NCBI GenBank assembly: GCA_030827475.1
Contig: JAUREJ010000004.1
Coordinates: forward strand, 37,244-79,773
Reading direction: 5' to 3'
Length of the DNA: 42,530 nucleotides
Source: Candidatus Poseidonia sp.
Lineage (GTDB): Archaea; Thermoplasmatota; Poseidoniia; Poseidoniales; Poseidoniaceae
In this document: piece by piece, positions 8,452 through 16,658 of the stretch
How the letters are laid out: each line of letters starts with the position of its first letter
How positions within the stretch are numbered: the stretch's first letter is position 1
The notes under the pieces: model-generated
The model's database searches: none
Told to the model about the DNA's origin: nothing
What the model saw: only the letters and a program-made list of their open reading frames with translations
Translations under genes and position numbers: made by a program

Positions 8452-9807
8452 TCAACCTTGACGCAGTTCGTTGAGCCATTCTTCGACCAAACTTTGGGTT
8501 CGATGGCCTTCGTGGGCTTGAAGCCTTGACGCCAAGAGATCAATTTCCTCGCCCACCGCTCCTGCACTCACGGCCATGTTCTTTGCATGGAGTTTCATGT
8601 GGCCTGCTTGAATGCCTTTGGTCGACAGCGCACGAAGGGCGCCCAAATTCTGGGCGAGTCCTGCACAGAGCATGATGCCGGCCAACTCTTGTGCGCCCTC
8701 AACTCCCAAGATGGCCAGGTTGGCCTGTGCGGCAGGGTGAACCTTGGAGGCGCCTCCCACGACGCCAACGGCCATCGGCAATTCCATGCTCCCAACGAGG
8801 TTTCCTTCGTCGTCTTGGGACCAATTTGACATGGAGGTGTATCGCCCGTGTTCGACGCTTGGCCAAGCATGGCATCCAGCTTCAATCGCTCTCCAATCTT
8901 GTCCGCAAGCAAGAGCAATGCTGCTGATGGCGTTCATGATCCCTTTGTTGTGGGTCGTGGCTCGAAACGGGTCTGCCACGGCAAAGGCATGGGCTTCCAG
9001 AATGCCTTGGATGACCGCCATCCCGTCTTCTCTTGAACCGTCAGAAGCAAGTTCTTCTGGCGTGAACGTAGCGGAGATTCTTGCGAGGCGGTGGGCTGCG
9101 AGGTTGGAAAGGATGCGGAGATGAGCACGGCCTCCGCACAGGGCCTCGATGCGCGGCGCGACACGCTCGGCCATGGTGTTGACGGCGTTGGCGCCCATGG
9201 CGTCTCGACAATCCACGAGCAGGTGAACGATGAGCATGTCACCTAGTGCTGTCGTCAGTTTACGTGATTGGATGTCCTTGCATCCGCCGCCAAGGGCAAC
9301 CATGCGAGACGGGATGTCGTTGCAGAACGCCATCAAGGCCTCTTTTTCACGTTCCAATGCTGCGATGGCTCCATCAAGGTCAGCAACCTCGAGCAGCTGA
9401 ATTTGACCGATCATCACGGGATCATCGTTGTTGGTGGTAAATCCGCCCAAAGCTCGGCATCGCTTCGCCATGTTTGATGCAGCGGCGACAATGCTGGATT
9501 CTTCCACGCAAAACGGTATGAGGTAGGGTTTGCCGTCGATCAGAAAGTTGGTCGCAACGCCAACGGGCAAGGACATCGTCCCGATCACGTTCTCGATCAT
9601 CCTGTCGGCTGCAGCCTCGTCCAATTCGCCATGTGCTGCGAGAGCAGCGACGTGTTCGGCCGAGAGGTTGCAGGCTTCCGCAACAATGGTTCGCCGTTCC
9701 TCCACGCTTTGGTTGTACAAGCCCTTGATTCGACTGTTTTCCACCGGCACGGCTGTCCCCTGTTCCAACGGTGGGCAAGGCGTTCTTTGAATGAATCGCA
9801 TGTGCAT
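8452..9807 (-). CDS. hmgA: Hydroxymethylglutaryl-CoA reductase, class II (bacterial-like)
   Basis: The enzyme reduces HMG-CoA to mevalonate, the committed step toward the isoprenoid chains of archaeal ether lipids. The sequence is of the class II type: ENVIGTMSLPVG with the catalytic glutamate (residue 72), then LIPFCVEESSIVAAASN, the catalytic lysine in HNKGIMN (about 288), aspartate in GQDWRA (about 304), and the C-terminal histidine in KLHAKNMA (about 407). Length is 451 residues, typical for class II. Two ATGs are possible, at 9807 and 9801; AGGA just upstream favours 9807. Class II enzymes in some Thermoplasmata and Archaeoglobales are thought to derive from bacteria, while most archaea have class I. 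The gene is divergent from the pseudo-AAA operon and shares its TTAACG-rich control region. Cofactor preference cannot be read reliably. Confidence 0.93.
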   Translation of the reverse strand: MHMRFIQRTPCPPLEQGTAVPVENSRIKGLYNQSVEERRTIVAEACNLSAEHVAALAAHGELDEAAADRMIENVIGTMSLPVGVATNFLIDGKPYLIPFCVEESSIVAAASNMAKRCRALGGFTTNNDDPVMIGQIQLLEVADLDGAIAALEREKEALMAFCNDIPSRMVALGGGCKDIQSRKLTTALGDMLIVHLLVDCRDAMGANAVNTMAERVAPRIEALCGGRAHLRILSNLAAHRLARISATFTPEELASDGSREDGMAVIQGILEAHAFAVADPFRATTHNKGIMNAISSIALACGQDWRAIEAGCHAWPSVEHGRYTSMSNWSQDDEGNLVGSMELPMAVGVVGGASKVHPAAQANLAILGVEGAQELAGIMLCAGLAQNLGALRALSTKGIQAGHMKLHAKNMAVSAGAVGEEIDLLASRLQAHEGHRTQSLVEEWLNELRQG

Positions 9808-9820
9808 GAGTTCCTGGGAG

Positions 9821-9912
9821 TTAACGGGTTTAACGCGTGGATTAACGCGTTAGGTTGCCGTTAATCTCGCGTTAATTCGCCTGAATTGGCCGTCGCCGCA
9901 TCACGATTAACG
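9821..9912. repeat. Cluster of six TTAACG/CGTTAA hexamers
   Basis: Between the divergent starts of HMG-CoA reductase and the AAA-like gene there are three direct TTAACG copies (9821, 9830, 9842), two inverted CGTTAA copies (9859, 9870) and one more direct copy (9907). The flanks are similar, giving a consensus near ATTAACGSG. The third copy also sits inside the palindrome TAACGCGTTA. About 0.05 copies would be expected by chance in 92 bp. The cluster begins 14 bp upstream of the HMG-CoA reductase start. It is most simply an operator array for a multimeric DNA-binding protein. A replication-origin element cannot be excluded, but it does not match known euryarchaeal ORB sequences. Confidence 0.75.
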
Positions 9913-9981
9913 TGTCCTAACAGGTCTCCGGCCGCATCCCGATGGATGAAACATCAAATACGTGAAGTGCGGTTGGGCGGT

Positions 9982-11871
9982 ATGGTCCAGAAATCTCGTC
10001 TTTTTGGCTTACCACTTCTTGATGTGAATCCGTTCTCCACCCGGCCGCTTGAGCCGGGTGATGCGGGGAAACTCATCGGCAGGAGCGAGGAGTTCAACCT
10101 CCTCAGGACCTATCTGAAGCTGGGGACGGCCCGGCGCATCATGTTGACGGGGCCGTTGGGATCTGGCCGAACCTCACTGGTTCGTTGCCTCAAACCCTAT
10201 GCAGGTGCCTTCATTTCCATCGATCATTTGCCTGCTCAGGCGCCTGCGCAAGCGATGTTGGAAATGTGCTATCAGCAACTGATTGGAGGCGACACGCTCC
10301 CGGGGCGCACCGAACTGGTGAACCAACTGGTCACGGAAATGTACGCGTATACGGACAAACTTCCGCTTGTGGTCATCGACGTTCCGGCCAGTGATTTCTC
10401 GGTGGTCGATGTTGCGCTCAGAGATGCACATTCTTCGCTTGAGCGACTCAATGCCGTCGTGGTTTTGGTGTGCGATGTCCGAGAGCGCCACCACCTTCCT
10501 GCAACGGTGGTCACCGGTTTTGAGCGGTTTTTGCTGTCGCCTTTTGGGCCGAGTGATGTCGTGGATTTGGTTGAGCATCGGTTGCGTGAAATCGGGGTGA
10601 TGAGCAGCAATTTTTCCTTGCAGGATGCCGAAACCATCCTCGAGGAATGCAGCGGCTACCCCTCAGAGGTGGTTGCCATGTTACGCGATGCTGTTGACCG
10701 TATTCGCATTGAGCACGCAGAAGGGGTTGCACCGCCGTACAGGGACACGTCTGCCCGCCTCCAACCGCGGGATGAGCCGCAACCGCTAGACGCTTTGATG
10801 AGCGGGGGGCTGGATGAACCACCGTTCCTTGGAAAGCAGAACGAGGCGATGAGCGGACTTGATGCAAACCCTCAACCTGCTTCGCAAACGCCGTCAGGTG
10901 ACATCATCGATGCCTCCACGCCGTGGAATGAGCGGCAAGAACCCGCCCACGATGCAGCAGCGTCGGAGGCGAAGGAGGGCGACGAAGGGAACGATGCAAC
11001 ACCCGTTCTGTCATTTTTTGATTTGGACATGGACGATCTTGACCGCTCCATCACCAACGATGACCCTCTCAAACCGCCCGAGTTCACCAACAACATCATC
11101 GATGCCTCTGGTTCTGCACCCTCCCGCCAACCCGTGGCGAGCGGGGGGTTTGGTAATCTTGTGAACCGAAACAAGGTCTCGCTATCAGCGGTTGATGCCA
11201 TCAAGAAAGACGCCATGAACCGCCCAAGTCGACTTGAAGATTATTCCGAGGCCGCTGAATGGTGGGTTGAGGAGACAAGCTTGCCTGATGTTCTCGAGGT
11301 TGAGGTGCCGGAGGTTGAATCCGCTGCCCTGATACATGACGAAATTGGTTTGCCCGCTCTCGAACTCGATTCTTTGTTCTCCCCTGAGGGCGGAGGGTTT
11401 GAATTGGGTGATGAAGAGATCTTGACTCTGCCGTCCGAAAACGCCTATCCAACCCAGACCGTACTTGAAGAGGCAACGCTCACCAAGCTGCTTCAGTTGC
11501 TGTTGGGTGGGAAAGTAAGCACCTCAGGCAACGAGGTCAAACACCTCGTTGACTTCTTCGCAAAGCGTCGCGTGGAGCGCACGGGCCCCAAAGAGTCCTA
11601 TCCGCTCGACAAGGTTGCGCTCGGTAGCCTCAGCATCGCCGAGACCTACGTGGTTGGCATCTCCAATCACCGTCCATATTCGCCATCGGATGCCGAGATT
11701 TTGGACCATCTTGACATCAAACGGTCTCGACTTTCGCAGATCAGCAACCGTCTCCTCAAGTTCGGTATTCTGCAGGTGCGGCCTTCAGGGCGAACAAGGA
11801 AGTATTCTCTTACTCAGGCAGCTCGAGCCCAACTTCTCGCTTGGGGTGCACTCAAAGGAGGTGAGGCTTGA
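9982..11871 (+). CDS. AAA+-like protein with degenerate Walker motifs and C-terminal winged helix
   Basis: The N-terminal about 260 residues have an Orc/Cdc6-like AAA+ layout. It has LIGRSEEFNLL before the P-loop, then GPLGSGRTS at 57-65, where the Walker A lysine is arginine. A Walker B-like strand LVVIDVPAS follows, lacking the usual glutamate. A long acidic, probably disordered linker (about 270-480) contains a repeated IIDAS motif. The C-terminus is a winged helix with SDAEILDHLDIKRSRLSQIS and an arginine-rich wing, suggesting DNA binding. The ATG at 9982 gives 629 residues; an ATG at 9946 or TTG at 9886 would extend it. Its stop overlaps the next gene's start in TGATG. Function is unknown; the architecture suggests a non-hydrolysing or weakly active DNA-binding assembly factor. 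Confidence 0.8.
   Translation: MVQKSRLFGLPLLDVNPFSTRPLEPGDAGKLIGRSEEFNLLRTYLKLGTARRIMLTGPLGSGRTSLVRCLKPYAGAFISIDHLPAQAPAQAMLEMCYQQLIGGDTLPGRTELVNQLVTEMYAYTDKLPLVVIDVPASDFSVVDVALRDAHSSLERLNAVVVLVCDVRERHHLPATVVTGFERFLLSPFGPSDVVDLVEHRLREIGVMSSNFSLQDAETILEECSGYPSEVVAMLRDAVDRIRIEHAEGVAPPYRDTSARLQPRDEPQPLDALMSGGLDEPPFLGKQNEAMSGLDANPQPASQTPSGDIIDASTPWNERQEPAHDAAASEAKEGDEGNDATPVLSFFDLDMDDLDRSITNDDPLKPPEFTNNIIDASGSAPSRQPVASGGFGNLVNRNKVSLSAVDAIKKDAMNRPSRLEDYSEAAEWWVEETSLPDVLEVEVPEVESAALIHDEIGLPALELDSLFSPEGGGFELGDEEILTLPSENAYPTQTVLEEATLTKLLQLLLGGKVSTSGNEVKHLVDFFAKRRVERTGPKESYPLDKVALGSLSIAETYVVGISNHRPYSPSDAEILDHLDIKRSRLSQISNRLLKFGILQVRPSGRTRKYSLTQAARAQLLAWGALKGGEA
10901..11108 (+). repeat. Duplicated IIDAS linear motif in the AAA-like protein linker
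   Basis: A 16-base segment is identical at 10901-10916 and 11093-11108, 192 bp apart and in frame. It encodes DIIDAS at residues 307-312 and NIIDAS at 371-376 within an otherwise acidic, low-complexity linker. Conserved short hydrophobic islands in a disordered linker often bind a partner. The family is unknown, so the partner is not known. Confidence 0.6.
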
Positions 11872-12923
11872 TGGCGTGGAATGTTGCATGGTCTTGGCAG
11901 GCATCCTCCCGTATCGCCACCTTGGCACCCGTTGAAGGCGGGCTTGTGGTCAGTTCAGGTTTGGACCTCGTGATGTTGGAGGCGGACGGAAGCGTCCGCT
12001 GGCGGATTGAAGTTCCCTTCAAAGTCCACGCCGCCCGAGCCGTGCAAGGCTCAATTGCCTTGCTTGCCGCTCATGGATTTTACATCATCAACAGTTCAAA
12101 CGGTGCCTTCGTGAGCGAAGGTCGAAGCACGCCTGGGGGATTCCGTGACCTTGCCGCCCGCCCCGGAGGCGGTTGGGCGCTTGCAGGACGTCACGGACAG
12201 ATCCACCTCTTTTCCCAAAAGGGCAGAGGCATCCGACGCGTTGACAGCGGTCCTGTTCGCCGTTTGGTCGGGTGGCTTGATCGAGAACATCTGCTCTGGC
12301 AAGACCCCCAAGGATGCATGTGGTGCGGCCGATTAACGGGCGAAGACAAGAAACGCCGCATCGAAGACCGCGCATGGAGTTGGTGCTCTGCCCTCAAGGA
12401 CGGGCGTTTGCTCTTGCAGAGCGCTGATGGTGGGCTTTGGGAGGGCGTTCCTCATCCGTTTGGTTGGGACCACTTGGAACGCTTGGAAAGCGATTCGCTC
12501 GAACCGATGGAAGCCGTTCGCTCGGGTGACGGTTGGTGGGTGCTGGGCATTGAAGGGCACCTCGTTTCGTTGTCCACCGCAAGCAAGGATGAAGGTGAAA
12601 AGCCTCCGCTGACCGAACGCATGAACCTCGGCGACCTCCTCGTGTTGTGCACGCCCGACGCCATGGCGACCGCCACGAGAGAAGGCCTTGTCCGTCGTTG
12701 GACGGCCCCTCATCTTTCGGATGCCGAGCGTGAAGGGAGGTACAAGGCGGTTGCCGAGGCGGCCATGGCCCGAAACTGGGAAGAGCGACGTCAAATGTTC
12801 CTCCGTGCTCAAGAAGCTGAAGACCTTGGAAAACTGTCCTTGGCCATCGAACTCTACGAGGCCTTAGGGCGTAGCGAAGACGCTCGGCGTTTGCTCGGGC
12901 GCATCAAGGAGGGCGATTCGTGA
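11871..12923 (+). CDS. Beta-propeller-like protein with short helical tail
   Basis: About 350 residues, soluble, without a signal peptide. The first about 280 residues look like WD40/PQQ-type propeller blades: repeated strands of the form GGLVVSSGLDLVMLEADGSV, GSIALLAAHGFYII, GGWALAGRHGQIHLF and DGRLLLQSADGGLWEG, each with a small glycine turn and a hydrophobic strand. The last about 65 residues are helical (YKAVAEAAMARNWEERR, then LSLAIELYEALGRSEDARRLL) and resemble a TPR-like hairpin. The ATG overlaps the preceding stop codon (TGATG at 11869-11873) and its own stop overlaps the next start the same way, so it is translationally coupled to both neighbours. It is probably a scaffold for the AAA-like and DUF357 proteins; that is an inference from the operon. 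Confidence 0.75.
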   Translation: MAWNVAWSWQASSRIATLAPVEGGLVVSSGLDLVMLEADGSVRWRIEVPFKVHAARAVQGSIALLAAHGFYIINSSNGAFVSEGRSTPGGFRDLAARPGGGWALAGRHGQIHLFSQKGRGIRRVDSGPVRRLVGWLDREHLLWQDPQGCMWCGRLTGEDKKRRIEDRAWSWCSALKDGRLLLQSADGGLWEGVPHPFGWDHLERLESDSLEPMEAVRSGDGWWVLGIEGHLVSLSTASKDEGEKPPLTERMNLGDLLVLCTPDAMATATREGLVRRWTAPHLSDAEREGRYKAVAEAAMARNWEERRQMFLRAQEAEDLGKLSLAIELYEALGRSEDARRLLGRIKEGDS

Positions 12924-13219
12924 TGTCGGAACTGACCAGCCTCACGGTCGAACGCGTGGAGCACTACCTCGACATCACCCGTCGAGCCCGTCAGAAGGCC
13001 ACACGAACGGTTGATGAATCGACGGAGGAGGGTCAGAAATTGACCGTGATGCTTCGCATGGCCGATGACTACGCAGCAGATGCTCGTCACTTTCTCGAAA
13101 CCGGAGACCTGGTCCGAGCCTTTGGGGCCATCAATTATGCGCACGCTTGGATCGATGCAGGTGTCAAGATCGGTTGGCTTGACGGTCACGGCGACGACGT
13201 GTTGTTCACCCTTCCTTAA
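12923..13219 (+). CDS. DUF357 family protein
   Basis: A 98-residue helical protein matching the archaeal DUF357 pattern: an N-terminal helix VERVEHYLDITRRA, a central helix MLRMADDYAADARHFLETGD, and the diagnostic LVRAFGAINYAHAWIDAGVKIGW at the end of the second hairpin. The function of the family is not established. The ATG at 12923 overlaps the propeller gene stop codon (TGATG). This makes it the third and last gene of a coupled operon with the AAA-like and propeller genes. It ends facing the PIN-domain gene, with a perfect stem-loop across the two stop codons. Confidence 0.85.
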   Translation: MSELTSLTVERVEHYLDITRRARQKATRTVDESTEEGQKLTVMLRMADDYAADARHFLETGDLVRAFGAINYAHAWIDAGVKIGWLDGHGDDVLFTLP

Positions 13220-15452: not shown

Positions 15453-16658
15453 TCAACGACGAGCCAGTCGCTTTGGAAGAAGCAATTCAAGACGCTGAGC
15501 GAGGTCGGCGGGGAGGAAATGCGGCATGCTCAGGTGGGTCGTACGACCTCGGCCGCCGGGGACGGTGGCCACACGGCTGGCCACGATGCCTTCTTGCTCG
15601 ATGGTCTTGACGTGCTTCCAGAGCGTCGTGTGGCTTTTCGGACGCTGTTCGTATTCTTCGCAAACCACGTTGTAAAGTCGTTCAACATCTCCCATGGTCA
15701 TGGATTCCTCGGTTCGTAGTCGGCGACACATGGCCAGAAGGACCAACATCCCTTGAGCCGGAAGGTCGTCAACAATCTCCAAGCGAGATGTTGTGTTCGT
15801 CGCCAATTCATCGTTCATGCCATGGAGGTCATCGACGGTGATGGCTTGCTCCGAATGGCCGTCCTGGCGAAATTCAGCGCGCTCGGCGGCGCTGCTCAGG
15901 TACTCGATCACTTGGCGAGCATCGCCGCTGTTTCCGGCCCGCTCGGCCACCAAACGAATGATCCCGTCGTTCCATGTCCCGGGCACCAAGGCCGATTCCG
16001 CTCGTTGACGCGCAATGGCCTCAAGGCCGTCGACGGTGTAGGGGGGGATACGGATGTGGTTCGTTTGGCCGAACTTGGAAAGGACCGCCGTCTCAAGCAC
16101 GTCCAGCACCTGTTCTTGGCTGATGAGAATGAGGGACACCGTGCCTTTCCCTTCTTGGTCCTCGTCGAGACGGAGCAGTTGATAGAGCAGTTCGTCACCT
16201 GAACGACGGAGCATGTGGTCCACCTCGTCGAGGACAACGATGAGGTGAGTGGATGTGCGACGCAACATCTTCCGCAAGCTCATCAACAGTTCGCCCATTG
16301 ACAAGCCACGGTCAGGATGGCCCGGGTCAAATTGGTGGAGGATGCGCTGAGCAACCCGCATGCTTGTCGAGGCGTTTCGGCAATTGATATGGGCGACGTT
16401 GATCTCACGTTTGCCCGAAAGGTGCCGCCGAAGGTCACGGCAGAAGGTTTTGGCGAGCACGGTTTTTCCGCTCCCCACCGGACCCGTGATGACGGCTCGG
16501 GCTGCGCCTTCTGGTGAGCCAACGGTCGTGAATTTGGAGGCCAAGGCCTCCTGGAGGTCTTCTCGGCCCACGAGTTCTTCAGGGAGGTAATCAAAATCCA
16601 GAATTTCAGGATGAGCGATGATGAGCCCAGCGCCAATCCGGTCCAAGTAGCCCGCCAT
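15453..16658 (-). CDS. cdc6: Orc1/Cdc6 replication initiator
   Basis: This AAA+ initiator binds archaeal origins and loads the MCM helicase. The 401-residue protein has LVGRE before Walker A GPVGSGKT (59-66), Walker B LIVVLDEVDHML, and a sensor 2-type GDARQVIEYL. A C-terminal winged helix follows (SHTTLWKHVKTIEQEGIV, then a wing with PGGRGRTTH). The order and length match archaeal Orc1/Cdc6. The ATG at 16656-16658 has no ribosome-binding site but has an AT-rich box (TTTTAG) about 28 bp upstream, consistent with a leaderless transcript. The upstream gap is only 89 bp, and I could not see obvious ORB repeats there, so an origin adjacent to this gene is not evident. Confidence 0.95.
   Translation of the reverse strand: MAGYLDRIGAGLIIAHPEILDFDYLPEELVGREDLQEALASKFTTVGSPEGAARAVITGPVGSGKTVLAKTFCRDLRRHLSGKREINVAHINCRNASTSMRVAQRILHQFDPGHPDRGLSMGELLMSLRKMLRRTSTHLIVVLDEVDHMLRRSGDELLYQLLRLDEDQEGKGTVSLILISQEQVLDVLETAVLSKFGQTNHIRIPPYTVDGLEAIARQRAESALVPGTWNDGIIRLVAERAGNSGDARQVIEYLSSAAERAEFRQDGHSEQAITVDDLHGMNDELATNTTSRLEIVDDLPAQGMLVLLAMCRRLRTEESMTMGDVERLYNVVCEEYEQRPKSHTTLWKHVKTIEQEGIVASRVATVPGGRGRTTHLSMPHFLPADLAQRLELLLPKRLARR

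Follow-up and report, generated by a model that had tools for sequence, protein, structure and literature searches.

In a 42,530-nt stretch of Candidatus Poseidonia sp. DNA (contig JAUREJ010000004.1; this whole stretch is called the window), an operon for an Orc1/Cdc6-like AAA+ protein with a winged helix (gene 1), a beta-propeller (gene 2) and a DUF357 protein (gene 3) stands beside a strikingly conserved array of TTAACG hexamers. Together, the Orc-like AAA+ operon and its array appear to form a new unit of Marine Group II, either regulatory or serving to anchor the chromosome. The array, missed by the initial annotation of the operon, is the strongest clue to a fixed local DNA target of the AAA+ protein. 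It would provide a sequence-defined binding target in these widespread, uncultured ocean archaea. The initial annotation knew of no described system with this gene set, and we found neither the trio nor the array described in the literature searched.

A hexamer array between divergent genes

Gene 1 (9982-11871, plus strand; 629 aa) was assigned from profile, model and alignments. Its divergent neighbour is the HMG-CoA reductase gene (HMGR; 8452-9807, minus strand; PF00368, E 3e-103). The gap between them (9808-9981) is occupied by six TTAACG/CGTTAA half-sites (9821-9912), located at 9821, 9830, 9842 and 9907 on the plus strand and at 9859 and 9870 on the minus strand, with the centre TTAACGCGTTA at 9842-9852. 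In the window the array starts 14 nt upstream of the first ATG of the HMGR open reading frame (ORF). These six hexamers lie within 92 bp, while the whole 42.5-kb window contains 14. Genome-wide avoidance of TTAACG was considered and rejected, with 72 hexamers observed and 69.6 expected in 400 kb. An alignment of 18 sequences from the first of the two families of the order Poseidoniales displayed an invariant centre, TAACGCGTTA, and downstream of it, just before gene 1, a conserved block resembling a B recognition element (BRE) and TATA box. In the window this BRE/TATA-like element, GAAACATCAAATAC (9948-9961, plus strand), is the probable core promoter of the operon, as judged from its sequence.

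Upstream regions of 260 nt from 84 loci contained 409 hexamers, 2 to 9 in each, whereas a first-order Markov model built on these sequences predicts 21.2 (200 simulations). In 10 of the 84 regions, some simulation of the 200 equalled the observed count. Two of 86 regions were left out, one containing N (L074) and one with less than 400 nt of upstream sequence (L092). The array was present with or without the propeller gene. Half-sites in 75 loci were spaced by 9 and 12 nt on the plus strand and by 11 nt on the minus strand, with a palindromic offset of 6. Ten second-family loci showed mainly 11 nt on either strand and a different overall layout, and in eight of them a site was found within 80 nt of gene 1. 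For this recount and that of the gene overlaps, L071-L150 were taken as first family without a taxonomy check. Each scanned locus contained one cluster (at least three sites in 120 nt) or none.

Genome-wide, a three-site pattern matched 70 of 96 genomes of the order. Some of these matches are expected by chance because the reversed control matched 24 of 96. Among the matches listed, 63 of 67 genomes had the match beside gene 1, as judged by eye; for seven of these 63 the position of gene 1 was not listed and the match lay a few kb from that of DUF357. The other four listed were a stray match (G045, contig C21), two matches near the end of another contig (G072 and G062) and one in a genome without a gene 1 position (G060). 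A direct-repeat form was detected in 11 of the 26 remaining genomes of the order, in none of five sister-order genomes and in none of 12 others (control 13/43). A mixed form matched none of the five sister-order genomes, two of the 12 others and one of three order genomes without a gene 1 match (control 6/20); this single order genome carried its match near a contig start. Thus, neither the array nor a gene 1 match was found in any of the five sister-order genomes. As far as sampled, array and gene 1 have one common phyletic range.

Coupling and range of the three genes

Gene 2 (11871-12923, plus strand; 350 aa) and gene 3 (12923-13219, plus strand; 98 aa) are joined to gene 1 and to each other by TGATG stop/start overlaps at 11869-11873 and 12921-12925, as first annotated; a GTG in frame with the DUF357 gene is located at 12920. 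Among 80 named relatives, coupling was above chance: an in-frame start shared 1 or 4 nt with the stop at 74 of the 75 junctions between AAA+ and propeller genes and at 64 of the 78 between propeller and DUF357 genes. Ten of the 14 remaining propeller-DUF357 junctions abut directly; the odd cases are the fused ORFs of L129 and L139 as well as L144 and L143. L139 and L143 are two DUF357 loci of one metagenome-assembled genome (MAG; bin_83), in which two strains were possibly binned together.

Gene 1 was detected in 142 of 145 Poseidoniales genomes and DUF357, by profile search, in 137 of 145. In 20 diverse loci gene 1 always adjoined HMGR, and 13 of them had the propeller gene between gene 1 and DUF357. 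DUF357 followed in 19 by BLAST and in the twentieth (L034) by profile (G109, contig C31, position 25554). ScpB was located beyond HMGR in 17 of the 20, once with an extra ORF between. Of 69 named loci, 65 had HMGR upstream of gene 1; in the remaining four, at most 261 nt separate the start of gene 1 from the locus edge. Moreover, the unit remained one block where the flanking genes are rearranged (L042, L045, L046 and L049). Inside the order the three genes, which might have proved rare neighbours, are therefore regular ones. In the window SMC, ScpA, ScpB and an Orc1-like gene lie in their neighbourhood. The initial annotation took this proximity as a hint at chromosome biology; the proximity is real, but as order-wide synteny the arrangement is weak evidence for such a role.

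Based on 194 genomes of the phylum, genes 1 and 2 are confined to the order. Gene 1 matched none of five sister-order genomes, compared with 47 of 48 order genomes, and its matches outside the order were short P-loop or winged-helix fragments in 33 of 146 genomes (E 6e-8 to 1e-3). The propeller search gave three weak partial matches there. Outside the order only DUF357 was found in the phylum sample, with other partners.

An Orc-like protein with lost catalytic residues and its partners

The gene 1 product consists of an AAA+ module (residues ~11-250), an acidic linker modelled at low confidence (~250-540) and a C-terminal winged helix (~540-620). Its AAA_16-like P-loop scored under the Pfam cut-off (25.2 vs 32.6 bits). 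The AlphaFold2 model calculated from a 68-row alignment had a mean predicted local distance difference test (pLDDT) score of 70.1, with ten-residue blocks reaching 84-94 for residues 11-240 and 91-97 for residues 541-620. Comparison with the Orc1 proteins from the same loci using hhalign gave a probability of 95.4 (E 1.8e-8) over 224 columns covering AAA+ and lid. Foldseek ranked the Cdc6/Orc1 structure 2qby_A first for the AAA+ module (E 1.7e-8), with clamp loaders and MuB/TnsC close behind. By profile and fold match, gene 1 thus shares an AAA+ module with lid and a winged helix with Orc1/Cdc6 and the Orc1-2 proteins of Sulfolobales.

In contrast to Orc1/Cdc6, the catalytic motifs of gene 1 are degenerate. 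Arginine takes the place of the Walker A lysine in 17 of the 20 sequences sampled across the order and in 61 of the 68 from the first family; the lysine is kept in 3 and 7, respectively. The Walker B aspartate is invariant, while the adjacent glutamate is present in none of the 20 or 68. Because the lysine is mostly replaced and the glutamate never present, gene 1 probably encodes a nucleotide-binding pseudo-ATPase. Furthermore, its winged helix lies beyond the long low-confidence linker and not, like Cdc6_C, close behind the lid; Cdc6_C was absent from the four gene 1 proteins scanned. The gene is coupled to those for the propeller and DUF357, and the window contains no full match to an origin recognition box (ORB). 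Gene 1 was not filed as an Orc1/Cdc6 initiator because the catalytic residues and a Cdc6_C close behind the lid are missing. The degenerate AAA+ protein with winged helix first proposed is borne out by motifs and model, and it did not prove an ordinary member of a known family.

Residues R581, R583, S585, Q586 and R606 of the winged helix are invariant in both gene 1 alignments (20 and 68 rows), despite an order-wide identity of 23-50% to the protein of the window. About 165-340 residues separate the two modules (by fixed trimming), another difference from Orc1/Cdc6. A sensor-2 arginine was found, as an exact match, in 7 of 7 propeller-less rows and in 0 of 13 other rows of alignment A1; this pattern is not independent evidence because the propeller-less rows form one clade in the aIF2-gamma tree. 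Two other origins of gene 1 were rejected. HerA ancestry gave an hhalign probability of 0.3. A defence or phage origin gave no good match: PADLOC returned IetA alone (E 0.023) at the gene 1 P-loop, and genes 2 and 3 matched no PADLOC profile. L043 was excluded from alignments A1, A2 and A3 on account of ambiguous residues in two genes. A4 contains, in addition to the window, 67 of the 68 candidate rows drawn from 75 named gene 1 loci, L095 being omitted; A5 contains the window and 65 of 77 candidates, 12 being left out by hand.

For gene 2, no Pfam family scored above the cut-off, with a sub-threshold match to PQQ_2 only. The AlphaFold2 model (mean pLDDT 87.6) agrees with the propeller and helical tail described before: it displays a beta-propeller with a four-helix C-terminal tail at residues 280-346. 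Foldseek placed this predicted fold among BamB- and WD40-type propellers (best E 5.7e-13, BamB; template-modelling score ~0.45-0.63 to BamB and WD40 proteins). The propeller gene was detected in 85 of 145 order genomes, 71 of 72 in the first family and 14 of 73 in the second. Since 7 of 21 genera lack it (14 have it), and the AAA+ and DUF357 genes then close up and stay adjacent, the propeller is dispensable and the core consists of AAA+ plus DUF357. This pattern does not support a fixed three-way stoichiometric complex of the kind suggested by the initial annotation.

In a midpoint-rooted aIF2-gamma tree the seven propeller-less loci form one clade (98/96) within the second family, consistent with a single loss. 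This single-clade pattern was absent from the HMGR tree, which has long branches; there, the propeller-less rows need two changes. In one first-family locus HMGR (L038:5969-7282) grouped with second-family sequences (100/100), perhaps a replacement in place that kept the adjoining array of nine sites. The linker motif FDLD was considered as a propeller dock and rejected as not conclusive: it was found in part of the first family only and not in the propeller-bearing second-family loci L045 and L049.

Gene 3 is a clear DUF357 member, as annotated (PF04010; 72.8 bits, cut-off 29.4, E 2.3e-20), with an invariant LFTLP near or at its C-terminus in 19 of 19 aligned sequences. The family has solved relatives, e.g. 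2oo2, and 175 of the 194 genomes sampled from the phylum contain it. According to a published table, DUF357 (arCOG01224) is present in 463 of 524 archaeal genomes, ranks among top-priority uncharacterized proteins and has DUF555 and a TagD-type cytidylyltransferase as context (PMC6393860). Its partners are AAA+ and propeller here, and often a HerA-type ATPase elsewhere in the phylum. A HerA-family gene lies directly upstream of DUF357 on the same strand in 27 of 75 Thermoplasmatota genomes outside the order, leaving 48 without, if only genomes listed with both positions are counted and the gap, taken from profile edges, is at most 1.5 kb; in 15 of the 27 it is at most 130 nt. HerA itself (E 1e-60) was detected in 106 of 194 genomes, all outside Poseidoniales and its sister order. 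Six loci with DUF357 directly behind a HerA-type ATPase gene are L053, L054, L057, L059, L061 and L065; all four ATPases submitted out of these six carry DUF87, the HerA domain of Pfam. This pairing may be a general clue to DUF357.

Three of the 80 named loci encode DUF357 as a fusion behind a Band_7/SPFH domain, at its normal place in the operon (L129:4404-5279, L139:4404-5279 and L150:4434-5285). Judged by eye, the start of the SPFH domain resembles a transmembrane segment. L150 carries the label AG-404-K16 and no MAG label, while L129 and L139 are MAGs. DUF357 thereby gains two recurrent DNA-related neighbours, the Orc-like AAA+ gene with its array and the gene of a HerA-type ATPase, along with a fusion of membrane type, and its function becomes accessible to tests.

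Possible roles of the operon and array

We consider it an even call whether an Orc-derived DNA binder coats the array and controls the divergent HMGR and operon promoters, joined by DUF357 as its core adaptor and, optionally, by the propeller. The gene 1 product would be derived from Orc1/Cdc6, would probably have lost ATP hydrolysis and would act as a DNA-binding protein. Several copies may bind the array cooperatively through the tethered winged helix, the bound half-sites lying about one helical turn apart and, in many of the genomes, to either side of a palindromic centre. Given the position of the array between the HMGR and operon promoters, binding would most likely control both, resulting in autoregulation and regulation of HMGR. 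HMG-CoA reductase is the enzyme of the mevalonate pathway at which carbon is committed to archaeal lipids. DUF357 would be the core small adaptor of a putative complex, and the propeller an accessory surface that varies with lineage and might serve for sensing or as a platform for docking. A precedent is Orc1-2 of Sulfolobus, in excerpts of PMC9738581 a non-initiator Orc1 acting as regulator; an Orc1 of Sulfolobales can thus turn into a transcription regulator (PMC9738581). By analogy, gene 1 may work like Orc1-2.

Several points weigh against such a regulator. In our judgement, order-wide constraint this strong is unusual for a plain autoregulatory operator. A second array cluster was seen in no scanned locus (single sites may occur), so that no wider regulon is visible. 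The array layout differs between the two families, and 15 of 96 order genomes match neither array pattern. The adjacency of HMGR could be plain synteny, as much of the block is conserved. The need of a regulator for DUF357 and a propeller has no explanation. Finally, binding of gene 1 to the array is deduced from sequence, and another protein could bind it. In L031, an ORF for a MarR-like winged-helix protein (11281-11691, minus strand; E 1e-4, under the cut-off) lies between DUF357 and a PIN gene and is a rival candidate binder of the array there. Similar-sized ORFs occupy this DUF357-PIN position in a few other loci.

A more novel alternative, which we regard as rather unlikely, is chromosome anchoring or partition, with a centromere-like array, gene 1 as binder, and DUF357 and propeller as link to condensin or membrane. 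A dedicated chromosome-locus machine of this kind, with a unique array shared by the order, coated by the Orc-derived pseudo-ATPase and tied by DUF357 to membrane or condensin, appears similarly improbable; in it, DUF357 would be a general adaptor for DNA-acting P-loop ATPases, as its HerA neighbour and SPFH fusion might indicate. The single array cluster per locus, the nearby SMC-ScpAB with ScpB on the far side of HMGR, and the SPFH fusions and HerA-type pairing of DUF357 are consistent with anchoring. Archaeal SegAB, whose genes likewise overlap and have palindromic binding sites just upstream, offers a parallel in the excerpts of PMC12284271. However, SegA is ParA-type and SegB a ribbon-helix-helix protein (PMC12284271, excerpts); neither kind of domain, and thus no ParA-like one, was found in the trio, and gene 1 is without hydrolysis residues. 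Moreover, L042 and L046 have AAA+, DUF357 and array intact with no SMC-ScpAB alongside. Inherited synteny could also account for the locus, as unrelated housekeeping genes would share one transcript with no physical link while another regulator binds the array. The likewise conserved neighbouring genes and the loss of the propeller would agree with this, but we find it doubtful in view of the overlaps kept at 74/75 and 64/78 junctions, the closing up of AAA+ and DUF357 once the propeller is gone, and the persistence of the unit where flanks are rearranged.

Least probable, and in our view very unlikely, is a replication origin or second origin with gene 1 as lineage-specific initiator. Such a role would suit an Orc-like AAA+ protein with winged helix, the multiple phased repeats, the Orc1-like gene about 6 kb away and the AT-rich stretch separating sub-arrays in L046. 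In contrast, gene 1 has lost its catalytic residues, and the window contains no full ORB match, with core matches at chance level. Furthermore, G066, G008, G045 and the genome of the window carry inverted ORB-like pairs on contigs different from that of gene 1 (L172:7770-7965, L173:7086-7267, L174:7968-8135 and, on contig C79 of the window's genome, L175:8514-8698). In these four genera the pairs measure 147-175 bp start to start and lie upstream of a conserved gene common to all four, which by eye looks metallo-beta-lactamase-like; the pair from the genome of the window includes a site with four mismatches. Single ORB-like matches (at most three mismatches) numbered 35 in 17 genomes against 23 in the reversed control, so that the repeated pairs alone carry weight. 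The pairs are candidates for the replication origin of Marine Group II, away from the window. Because they lie elsewhere in four genomes, the array is probably not oriC.

In the one-contig genome G002, 20 spaced 20-kb stretches and one of 18 kb displayed no clear GC-skew turning point. No gene-strand switch occurred at the array, the sampled genes on both sides being mostly on the plus strand, and single ORB-like matches only were detected, which did not place the origin. The Orc1-like protein of the window (15453-16658) is about 24-25% identical to a second one on another contig (L177:1092-2333); the window's genome thus seems to encode two Orc1-like proteins.

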